Shown piece by piece: positions 5,760 through 37,557 of a DNA stretch of 64,000 nucleotides (the stretch's first letter is position 1; every line of letters starts with the position of its first letter). The notes under the pieces were generated by a model that ran no database searches, had not been told where the DNA came from, and worked only from the letters and a program-made list of their open reading frames with translations. Origin of the DNA: Amphirosellinia nigrospora (Eukaryota; Ascomycota; Sordariomycetes; Xylariales; Xylariaceae); the NCBI GenBank assembly GCA_004123355.1, contig SCHM01000001.1, forward strand, positions 4,952,001-5,016,000, read 5' to 3'. A program made the translations under genes and the position numbers.

Positions 5760-8481
5760 ATGCCTGACGAAGAAATGGAGATGGTCGTCGATTTTGGCCC
5801 AGCGGGTTTCGGTGAGGACATCGACATAGATTTAGATTTCCCAGCTGGGGAGCCCGATGAAGATATGGACCTTGGGGACTTTGATGGCATCCCCGATATT
5901 CACAATTTCAACTCAGACAATCGTGATGAACTGATGGCGGAAGGGGACGATGCATCTTACGGCATGATCGACGTTGTAGAACCTGGCCATAACGCTCCCG
6001 CCGCGACTGCCAACGACTTTGACATTGAGCTTGAACACACAGCCGAAAGCATCTGGCAACAGGATGTGTCTCATTCTGTGGGCTTTAATCCAGATGCGAA
6101 TATTGATTACCTTGGCGAGACTACAGCTGATAATATGGACGCTGAAAGAAATGATGTCCAGACCAGTGAGTGGTTACCAGCTGCAACGAATCCCCAGGAT
6201 GCAAATTCTATGGGTCATGGCCATGGGGTTTCAGTTGAAACATCTGCAGATACACGAGAATCACACGGACGGCCCCTTCTGGAACGCTCCGCAACCTCGG
6301 ATGGAGAACCTGCTGGATCTATCAAGGCGCCGCACACTGACGCGGAAGCTACCCATTCCCCTGTAGCTTCTAGTTTGAAAAAGACAAGTCAGCCAGACCA
6401 TGTAGATGATCTACCCGAAGACGAAATAGCTGAGGTAGTAGCCCAAGTTTCGGACCAGCCATCAATTGTGGACCAAGATGAGCAGGCTGTTAGCCAACCA
6501 AATGCTGATGCTGAGCATCAGAGCCCAGGCTTCAAGTTTCAGGAATCCAATGAGCTACAAGAAACCAACTATCCGGGCGAAGCTTCTCAAACGAGATCCG
6601 ACCATATTGATGAATCTTTTGTATCTCCTAATCTTGAACAATTAGGACCTCCTGAGGTTACCGAGTCAAGTGACGTGAAAGAAGATAACACCGATTCCTC
6701 TCGCCCTGAAGTAGGTGAATTCGCCGATGATGCTTCAGAGTATCAATTAGGTGCTGAATCGTATAACGAGGACACCAATGACCAGGCAGACAATTATGAT
6801 GAGGCTCCTCAGGGTGAGTCTTCTACACTCGATCGTTCCTACTCGCAATCTCTGGAAGCCGGCCTTGTTCAAGGCAGCGAAGACTACCAGAACGAAGTGG
6901 CTACTGCTGCAGCCTCCGACCGTCCTACTCTAGGAGCCGGTGATAGAGATGACCCTGTCGAGTTAGCCGAACACTATGGTGTATATATAGCGTACGGCGA
7001 GACAGATTACCGGCTTTTCGCCAAGTCCGAAGATGATGACCCCAATCAGTATTTTCTTACCGATAAGTCGGTCTTGGATCTTTCTCTTGCTCAGTTTCTG
7101 ACAAGCGTGCGAGACGTGATTTCCGAAGAAGTATCACCTCTAGATGACTTGGTGATGCAAGTTGACGGTCTTGGGATTGAGTTTTCGGAGGTAAGTTAAA
7201 GGAACAAATCGGGCACTCGATCCCTACTAACTGTTTGATAGTCGACCAGTTCAGATTTCCTCGGGAAATTTACCTTTGGTGACCTAGTGGTTTTATACGA
7301 CAAACTTGTCAAAAACGAGGAGGCGGAATCACCACCACCAATCTATACTTATCTAACTGTAAGACCGAATTGTATTCGGCGCATGATGGCATTAGGGGAG
7401 AGCGCAAATGCTGGCCGAGGCTGGTCCGAGGTCGCTCTGTATCGTGACTCATCATTATTAGATGAAGAGCAGGCGAATGATGTGGAAAGCCCTATTACTG
7501 ACTTTTCGAATGGTGATTACAATGATGGTGAGAGTAACAGCATATGTCCACAGGAAGACTACGAAAAGGGCGATGCTGTCGACGACAATGATCAACAAAA
7601 CTTGCTTGCGGTAGCCGTCGAGGCGCAATTGGAACATCCCCTAGATGAGAATAAGGAAACCGACGAGCTTGGTAATGACGAAGACGAAAATTCCTTTCAC
7701 AACTCAACCAATGCCGCCGATGAATTGGATGTTTCCGTATCTAGGCAGGGTATTTACCCCCTCGTTTTCCAGTATCCCTTTTCCTGCACGCGGGACAGCA
7801 CTTGTTCATGCGAGGACTGCTATGAAGTTGAACTTCAGTCTCTTGCTACACCGATGCAAGCCGTAGTTCGGCTAGCCTCTGGCATAGTGGTGCCTATACA
7901 CGACAGCCCCACACATATAACTTGGATGACTAACCATACCATACATGAAGGCCCTGCGACAAGCGAGTCCTCGGTGCTACAATCACAGGAACTTCGCGAA
8001 CACGAGCCGCAACCCAACTCGAATACACCGGAAGCTACTGAATCGAAACTACACGTACCTGAAATTGCGCCAACACATCCGTCGGCTGATCTTCCAAACT
8101 CTGAGAACACCAGCGTGACTGCCACTCTTGACGGCGAGGAGCACAACGAGATTAACTACGATTCCGACTCTGACGAAGATGACGAAGACCGTCATAGTGC
8201 TGTCAACAAATCGAATATGTCAGATTTACCGACAACGCCGGATTTGAACGCACTTGTTGATGACGAGATTACATGGGAATCGGAAGAAGAAGAAGATGAG
8301 AACGAAACTAAAGATGGTTTGGTCAAAGATACAGTACAAGTGTCACCAGTATCTTTAAAACGGACTCGATCAGAGCTGGACGCTTTGGATGGCGCAGGTG
8401 ACAAGAACGGTATGACCTTCAACTCACAATACCGGATCGTTTAACTGACTTGACATAGATAACAAGCGTCGTCGGTCTTGA
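5760..8481 (+). CDS. Acidic protein of unknown function (873 aa)
   Basis: I do not recognise this protein. The exons are 5760-7190, 7242-8409 and 8459-8481. The introns are clean (GTAAGT...CTAACTGTTTGATAG; GTATGA...TGACTTGACATAG) and the frame is intact. The start is the ATG at 5760; the open frame extends upstream only through a GTG. The N-terminal two thirds is disordered and strongly acidic (runs of D, E, S, Q). An ordered-looking block at about residues 400-520 (YGVYIAYGETDYRLF; LVMQVDGLGIEFSE; then SDFLGKFTFGDLVVLYDKL after the first intron) is the best candidate for a folded domain. A second, cysteine-containing patch (CTRDSTCSCEDC) lies at about residue 660. The tail is again acidic (WESEEEEDENE) and ends in a basic KRRRS, encoded by its own 23-nt exon, which may be a nuclear signal. 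No function is claimed. Confidence 0.85.
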
Positions 8482-36443: not shown

Positions 36444-37423
36444 TGTAGGCTTCGTATTATCACAACGTAAACGTCTTCCTGTCCTTCTTCGACCGCTCTC
36501 TCGTATGGGGGGGGCTAGGGAGGCATGGGACTCGTACGTGTCGTGCGGGATTCGCTGAGATGGGACAAGTTGATTGCAACTATAGAAAGAAACGACTTGA
36601 ACGGTACGGCGGTACAGTGCTGCGCGGCACTCGGGGTATTTGACGGATATACGTAAATACTGTATTACGAGAATCTAGCGGCAGAACGACGATCTTCTCA
36701 ACGTATATTGAAACGCGCGTTCCAGATAATGTCCCCAAAAAAGAGAAAAGGGATGTAGGCAAGCTAGGTAGGTAGGTAGTTAGGTAACGGTCAGAGCAGT
36801 AAATGACAATAGCTTGTGGTAGAATCGAAACAGAAAGTAGAGGCAGGGAACAATACGATTGTGATATATAAAAAGGTAAGGTGGTAGCAGATATGGAATG
36901 GAGGCTCCCGTTCATCATCCGCTGGGACAGTAGGTACATCCCAGTGCCACTACTGCCCGCCCCGCCCGCCGAAAACAGCCCTGCTTGTGTAATTGGCTTC
37001 ATGTGGCTATGATTGGCTAGGCTAGCCTGGATCTGGCTTATGATGACATGATCAGGGTTTTGGGAACCTTGATGGTCCAAGGACCCTTTCCGCTAACTTG
37101 CCCTGGGTACCTCAATTACAGCCGTGAGAACATGCAACCTACCTACTCTTATCCCACCTAGGCAGGAAAAGCATAAAAGTTAACCCATTGTCCCATGCAA
37201 ATCTGCCCTCATGACAGAACACAGGAAGCATGGAGGCTAATCTTATCTCAAGAGGATCCAGGCGCAAGGCCGCTCACTAGTAAATTCTGTGGCTTAAACC
37301 GAGTGCTAGGTGTATTTTCAGATGAAGTGCCAAGATAATGAGTGCGGGGTTCATCTAACAACATGAAAAAATATATCAACACTAGGTACCATATATAGAA
37401 GGAAAAAAGAACCAAGAAAAGAC
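36444..37423. other. Upstream region of zrt3 and 3' flank of tRNA-Asn
   Basis: There is no supported protein gene. A (GGTA)n-type run lies at about 36766-36786. The minus-strand T runs at 37417-37420 and beyond are the likely RNA polymerase III terminator of the tRNA. Confidence 0.5.
36766..36786 (+). repeat. TAGG/GGTA tandem repeat
   Basis: Adjacent copies of TAGG (AGGTAGGTAGGTAG) in an intergenic spacer. Confidence 0.8.
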
Positions 37424-37557
37424 CTCCCCGGGAAAGGCTCGAACTTTCAACCTCCTGATTAACAGTCACTGTACTTGTTGTTAGACACTAACTTGCTCTA
37501 CCGGACAAATGTTTGCGGTATAACTCACGACGCGCTAGCCAATTGCGCCACCGAGGA
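37424..37557 (-). tRNA. tRNA-Asn(GTT) with a 60-nt spliceosomal-type insertion
   Basis: Joining 37529-37557 to 37424-37468 gives a perfect 74-nt tRNA. Acceptor TCCTCGG pairs with CCGGGGA (one G-T); D arm GCGC/GCGC with loop AATTGGCTA; anticodon stem TCTGA/TCAGG around loop CTGTTAA (anticodon GTT, T33, A37); variable AGGTT; T arm GAAAG-TTCGAGC-CTTTC; discriminator G; then a T4 terminator at 37417-37420. The segment 37469-37528 must be absent for the anticodon stem to form. It starts GTGAGT, has CTAAC at 37480-37484 and ends TACAG, which is a textbook fungal spliceosomal intron. It sits between tRNA positions 28 and 29, not at the canonical 37/38 site. Canonical tRNA-splicing introns would not be placed there. 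Function after processing is inference. Confidence 0.88.
37469..37528 (-). other. Intron-like insertion inside tRNA-Asn
   Basis: 60 nt with GT-AG ends, donor GTGAGT, branch-like CTAAC with the branch A 12 nt from the 3' end, and acceptor TACAG. The boundaries are unique: shifting the junction by one base in either direction destroys the tRNA stem. It contains a perfect 5-bp hairpin (GTTAG-TGT-CTAAC, 37480-37492) that sequesters the branch site, and a D-arm-like GGTAGAGC (37495-37502). Confidence 0.85.

Follow-up and report, generated by a model that had tools for sequence, protein, structure and literature searches.

Candidate spliceosomal introns at non-canonical sites in tRNA-Asn(GUU) and tRNA-Lys(CUU) genes of Amphirosellinia nigrospora

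Can a nuclear tRNA gene carry an intron that is removed by the spliceosome? By the usual view, introns of nuclear tRNAs are dealt with by the Sen endonuclease and a tRNA ligase, and spliceosomal introns occur in mRNAs and a few other RNAs, such as U6 and U3. The question is raised by a tRNA-Asn(GUU) gene within a 64,000-nucleotide stretch of the A. nigrospora genome (the window, C1:4952001-5016000), which is split in its anticodon arm by 60 nt with the look of an mRNA intron. An earlier note on this DNA had read the 60 nt as a spliceosomal-type intron at a non-canonical site, as an introner-like element, or as an insertion that inactivated the gene. These readings were weighed against the rest of the genome (48.1 Mb searched, in 11 contigs). 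Among the best 120 of 704 hits of one protein encoded in the window, the nearest are from Xylaria flabelliformis (83%) and X. digitata (84%), in keeping with a Xylaria-like ascomycete.

Removal of 37469-37528, exactly as proposed in the earlier note, leaves 74 nt that ARAGORN identifies as tRNA-Asn(gtt), in which every stem pairs, two of the pairs being G-U wobbles (4:69 and 27:43). The joined exons form a complete cloverleaf, and precise removal of the intron restores a full tRNA. The insertion site at 28/29 and the motifs GTGAGT, CTAAC and CAG were likewise seen in the window sequence, and the junction is unambiguous, the uninterrupted tRNA-Asn genes of the same genome reading straight across 28/29. 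From the A of CTAAC, 12 nt lead to the end of the acceptor, with an additional AAG between the branch site and CAG. For a random insert of equal length and composition, the combination of a GTRAGY start, an AG end and CTRAY 6-30 nt from the end has p ~6e-6. The T4 run reported downstream is present and is followed by a T6 run (Table 1). Two internal segments are presumably the A and B boxes, assigned by the box consensus. With a cloverleaf, both boxes and a downstream T run, the gene has what would be expected of a functional tRNA-Asn gene. The presence of an interrupted tRNA-Asn(GUU) gene in the window is confirmed.

Table 1. Features of the interrupted tRNA-Asn gene, in window coordinates.
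Feature	Position	Strand	Remarks
Interrupted tRNA-Asn(GUU) gene	37424..37557	-	Genome C1:4989424-4989557; exons joined and called with ARAGORN
Exon 1, tRNA positions 1-28	37529..37557	-	Identical to the C4 copy
GT-AG intron, 60 nt, site 28/29	37469..37528	-	Single copy in the genome
5' splice site GTGAGT	37523..37528	-	GTAAGT in the C4 copy
Branch-site motif CTAAC	37480..37484	-	Expected branch A 37481; within a 13-nt block, TAGTGTCTAACAA, common to the C4 copy
3' splice site CAG	37469..37471	-	TAG in the C4 copy
Exon 2, tRNA positions 29-73, anticodon GTT	37424..37468	-	Identical to the C4 copy
Presumed A box, TGGCGCAATTGG	37539..37550	-	Position read from the sequence
Presumed B box, AGTTCGAGCC	37436..37445	-	Position read from the sequence
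T4 run, possible Pol III terminator	37417..37420	-	Starts 4 nt beyond the last tRNA base
T6 run, possible back-up Pol III terminator	37403..37408	-	

Such a gene is easily overlooked. When introns were allowed, ARAGORN miscalled the unjoined gene as Val(AAC), and when they were not, it reported no tRNA in the window; the Rfam tRNA model left the gene unreported at the gathering score in the window and also at E <= 10 in a 3-kb piece. Because standard finders miss or misname it in this way, more interrupted tRNA genes may hide in fungal genomes.

A genome search with the joined tRNA-Asn gave seven matches belonging to five loci, and a pattern running from the anticodon to the B box recovered the same five loci plus one match without the look of a tRNA. 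Two of the five are interrupted: the window gene and C4:7718820-7718946. The exons of this second gene are identical to those of the window gene (74/74), and its intron, at the same site, comprises 53 nt with the anatomy GTAAGT...CTAAC...TAG. The introns themselves have diverged, with 18 of 53 aligned columns differing and a further 7 columns gapped. Away from the splice ends, the two bodies share 30 identical positions against a mean of 27.7 for shuffled sequences, a value equalled or bettered by 14.5% of 200 shuffles; the 13-nt block listed in Table 1 surrounds the branch site in both. No significant similarity was found between the flanks of the two genes over 1.4 kb on each side. If the exons drifted at the rate of the introns, zero changes in 74 would have p ~5e-14. 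The identical exons are most simply explained by selection on the joined tRNA; gene conversion could contribute, or could as an alternative have kept them alike. The 5' leader of the C4 copy (L163) ends, directly before the tRNA, in TGTCTAACAACACCAG, which is similar to TGTCTAACAACAAGTACAG, the part of the window intron that spans branch site and acceptor.

The remaining three tRNA-Asn loci are uninterrupted. At C5:3585943 the cloverleaf is intact, and the sequence departs from that of the interrupted genes at bases 6 and 68 of the 74-nt string, which form pair 6:67, G-C in the interrupted genes and C-G in this one. C5:3723694 and C5:3722540 have altered acceptor or D stems, and ARAGORN still calls both tRNA-Asn. 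These two genes lie in inverted orientation about 1.1 kb apart (C5:3722540-3723767, L162). Given the swap at pair 6:67 and the two altered uninterrupted loci, the interrupted genes constitute a sequence type of their own and are not the worst preserved. A full uninterrupted set was named in the earlier note as something that would count against the intron; three such loci do exist, but only one of them retains an intact cloverleaf.

A second isotype is affected. The Rfam search of the genome listed a tRNA-Lys(CTT) gene with 69 nt at the T loop, C4:9402022. Comparison of tRNA-Lys(CTT) with the genome revealed nine loci, three uninterrupted and six matching bases 1-54 only. These six are broken in the T arm at 52/53, where the tRNA sequence gives way to GCGGGTGAGT or GCGGGTAAGC, and in two of them the 5' exon itself is altered. 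Both exons were found at five, in each of which AG precedes the 3' exon GTTCGACC...; in the sixth, C1:12141474, the 5' exon has diverged and the stretch examined contains no 3' exon. Joined exons equal the uninterrupted genes in two of the five, C4:1512455 and C1:5977507, and the introns of these two are unrelated to each other while their exons are unaltered. C4:9402022 has one exon base changed, turning a G-C pair of the acceptor stem into G-U, and its intron ends in AAG, with a TAG upstream; C1:5363214 and C5:3030425 have small changes in an exon. Exon damage was found at three of the six broken loci, including C1:12141474, which is without exon 2 in the stretch examined. The site at 52/53 is the edge of the B box, and the intron's last G leaves the DNA still reading GGTTCGACC. 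Two further features were observed at tRNA-Lys(CTT) genes. The intron of C4:1512455 (L164) contains a B-box-like CGTTCGACC, as the U6 intron of this genome does with AGTTCGAGTC. The genes (L001-L003, L103, L164-L167) also have a conserved 3' trailer hairpin, GCATCGGG-CTCAATT-CCYGATGC, with variants in some; its loop resembles a T loop or B box, and it competes with the acceptor stem.

The two tRNA-Asn introns and the five tRNA-Lys introns with both exons were then considered as one set of seven. Lengths range from 53 to 63 nt. All seven start with GTRAGY and end with AG (YAG in six), and all contain CTRAY, the acceptor end lying 9-13 nt after its A. The rules reported for fungal introns are GTRWGT, RCTRAY and YAG, with 6-36 nt from branch to acceptor (PMC5832005). 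On the strength of the GTRAGY starts, the CTRAY spacing and the six YAG ends, the tRNA introns match this consensus as given there, with the qualification that both Asn branch sites read YCTAAC, having T before CTAAC where RCTRAY wants R. Three introns (those of the window gene, C4:9402022 and C1:5363214) have an additional AG after the branch site and before the acceptor. The intron of C4:1512455 contains a T5 run, which may stop Pol III; for comparison, in 26 of 83 unfiltered ARAGORN calls the longest T run in the 70 nt downstream is a T5. T runs in the seven introns are not rarer than expected by chance, T4 or longer occurring in one intron where 1.5 would be expected. Neither 28/29 nor 52/53 is the canonical Sen position, 37/38. 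The likeness to coding introns of this genome asserted in the earlier note fits a heuristic scan of the window for putative coding introns, in which the best of the eight grouped candidates listed (7191-7241, GTAAGT..TACTAAC..TAG) lies between two long ORFs. An assembly artefact was considered and is unlikely, because the seven introns differ in body and lie at separate loci.

Other Pol III-type genes of the genome provide a background for these loci. No interruption was found in Gly(GCC), Thr(AGT) or Val(AAC) genes (11, 4 and 7 loci, respectively). Of four Arg(ACG) loci, one has no interruption, and each of the other three has an insert of about 25-32 nt placed one base 3' of the anticodon, at 37/38, where Sen introns usually lie. 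A B-box pattern gave 271 matches in the genome, against 180 for the reversed pattern. A simple scan looked for a T arm together with an A box and an acceptor strand some distance away; it is blind to T-arm introns and misses some ordinary tRNAs. It found no further isotype with a non-canonical intron in the loci that it covered, which, with three duplicates left aside, included 100 B-box matches out of 271 (from C1 and the beginning of C4) and the majority of 58 Rfam hits. Genes for Phe, Tyr, His and Ile were not among the loci obtained from the Rfam search, in which 63 of 1644 candidates were scored, and the B-box search, with 100 of 271 places listed. An uninterrupted anticodon-arm pattern for Ile(AAT) gave eight matches, chance ones as judged by eye, against 13 for the reversed pattern, and two exon-donor junction patterns gave no matches in viral_contigs. 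The U6 gene at C4:5776774-5776924 contains a 51-nt intron of the spliceosomal type, GTAAGC...TACTAAC...CACAG, with the B-box-like element noted above inside it. A second U6-like gene, C4:10119272-10119370 (L102), has no intron and a changed ACAGAGA region, like a diverged copy. Five Ala(AGC) genes (L027, L028, L029, L030 and L079) are followed directly downstream by a second element resembling a T arm or B box, GGAGG-TTCAATT-CCTCC, which varies somewhat among them. At L133, 246-321 (+), a tRNA-like stretch of 77 nt in which acceptor and T arm pair received no ARAGORN call.

Taken together, the anatomy of the introns, the exons and splice signals kept by paralogues at scattered loci, the return of the pattern in another isotype and the U6 intron make it quite probable that these are U2-type spliceosomal introns in nuclear tRNA genes (Asn at 28/29, n = 2; Lys(CTT) at 52/53, n = 5), which the spliceosome would remove. 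To this extent the first reading of the earlier note, that a nuclear tRNA gene holds a spliceosomal-type intron away from the canonical site, is borne out, and such introns recur in a second Asn gene and five Lys genes. We infer that Pol III probably transcribes the window gene, using the A box (37550-37539) together with the B box (37445-37436) as promoter and the T runs at 37420 and 37408 as the end. The spliceosome would then recognize GUGAGU, CUAAC and CAG in the transcript, take out the intron and join the exons, after which the cloverleaf could fold and the ends be trimmed; the joined tRNA would presumably serve in translation. There is precedent for such a route in Schizosaccharomyces pombe, where Pol III makes U6 and the spliceosome takes an mRNA-type intron out of it (PMC8917221). 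The interrupted genes need not be essential, since the genome has at least one intact uninterrupted Asn gene and three uninterrupted Lys(CTT) genes. Against this account weigh the damaged exons at three of the six broken Lys loci and a fourth locus with a substitution and an AAG acceptor, and likewise the additional AG in three of the introns, the T5 run at C4:1512455, T runs no scarcer than chance and the T that stands for R before both Asn branch sites.

It is also possible, if unlikely, that a Pol II transcript spans the locus, the intron being spliced there and the tRNA cut out of it or never made. The spliceosomal signals of the introns are ordinary ones, as would suit such a transcript, and the T5 run in the C4:1512455 intron would hinder Pol III. 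The window gene, however, has A and B boxes and downstream T runs, and loci with unrelated flanks have only the tRNA and the intron position in common.

A further alternative is that intron-like insertions inactivated the tRNA genes and that the cell uses the uninterrupted copies, which are known for both isotypes. At least three of the six broken Lys loci have damaged exons, and eukaryotic tRNA genes with non-canonical insertions are in most cases presumed to be pseudogenes (PMC4090602). Inactivation is nevertheless improbable as a general account: splice signals are kept in all seven introns, two Lys genes have unaltered exons around unrelated introns, and alterations also occur in two of the three Asn loci that have no intron. 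For the window gene, this claim of the earlier note is contradicted by the paralogue, in which 74/74 exon identity accompanies a diverged intron with its signals kept. From the sequences, inactivation is not favoured for the two Asn genes and the two best Lys genes.

Removal by the Sen endonuclease through a bulge-helix-bulge (BHB), as in archaea and Cyanidioschyzon, would account for sites other than 37/38, and PMC4090602 describes both non-canonical tRNA introns handled in this manner and a eukaryotic Sen enzyme able to cut BHB substrates. We consider it very improbable here. Pairing at the junctions was no better than in shuffled sequences, with 350-1799 of 2000 shuffles reaching the score for each of the seven introns, by a home-made score that would miss relaxed BHB motifs; GT-AG ends and a branch-site motif are, on the other hand, found in all seven. 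That a recently mobile introner or introner-like element entered the tRNA genes, as the earlier note had suggested, would suit several copies of two tRNA families with one fixed intron site each, but is scarcely credible, for near-identical copies would be expected whereas the 60 nt of the window intron match only themselves in the genome (very common words being skipped in the search), in the two pairs tested introns of one family do not resemble each other in body significantly more than shuffled sequences do, and one site per family fits inheritance and gene duplication better.

Spliceosomal removal may be put in a stronger form, in which the spliceosome is a regular tRNA-maturation enzyme of this Xylaria-like lineage and Pol III precursors with old, position-conserved introns supply part of the tRNA-Asn(GUU) and tRNA-Lys(CUU) pools. 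On the sequences at hand, we regard this stronger form as evenly poised between true and false. Were it true, spliceosome activity would directly limit translation, and in the Lys genes a promoter element and a splice site would overlap, the intron's final G restoring the B box in the DNA (AG/GTTCGA). More generally, if the introns are removed as proposed, the spliceosome would be able to process tRNAs, splicing would be coupled to translation, and these genes would offer a natural system in which to study how Pol III transcripts meet the spliceosome.

According to PMC5832005, no small structured RNA other than U3 and U6 is so far known to carry introns often. Insertions in the D or T arm of eukaryotic tRNAs are mostly supposed to indicate pseudogenes, nucleomorphs and Cyanidioschyzon being the exceptions given in PMC4090602. 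In the open-licence PMC literature, as distinct from subscription papers, we recognized no earlier report of spliceosomal introns in nuclear tRNA genes, and the available portions of PMC3978253, PMC6461891, PMC11782384, PMC12621601, PMC13130702 and PMC2784804 contain no such case. Spliceosomal introns in Pol III RNA genes are known; a tRNA host, with two fixed sites in two isotypes, is new as far as open-licence searches show.

The known systems resemble these introns each in part. The BHB introns of Cyanidioschyzon, nucleomorphs and archaea share sites off 37/38, the anticodon stem and T arm included (PMC4090602), whereas the present introns have no BHB above control and have GT-AG and branch-site anatomy instead. 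Canonical Sen introns share the nuclear tRNA host and occur in this genome, for example in Arg(ACG), but lie at 37/38, measure about 25-32 nt in the three Arg genes and do not follow the GT-AG rule. Fungal U3 snoRNA introns are likewise short, have GT-AG ends, sit in a small structured RNA and obey the same rules for donor, branch and acceptor (PMC5832005); the host RNA differs, and introns of U3 paralogues are almost always very similar, unlike those of the tRNA paralogues here. The U6 snRNA intron of S. pombe and other fungi is also of mRNA type, lies in a Pol III transcript and is taken out by the spliceosome (PMC8917221), but the host in the present case is a tRNA, an adaptor encoded in several copies, which must keep a strict fold and has promoter boxes inside its mature sequence.
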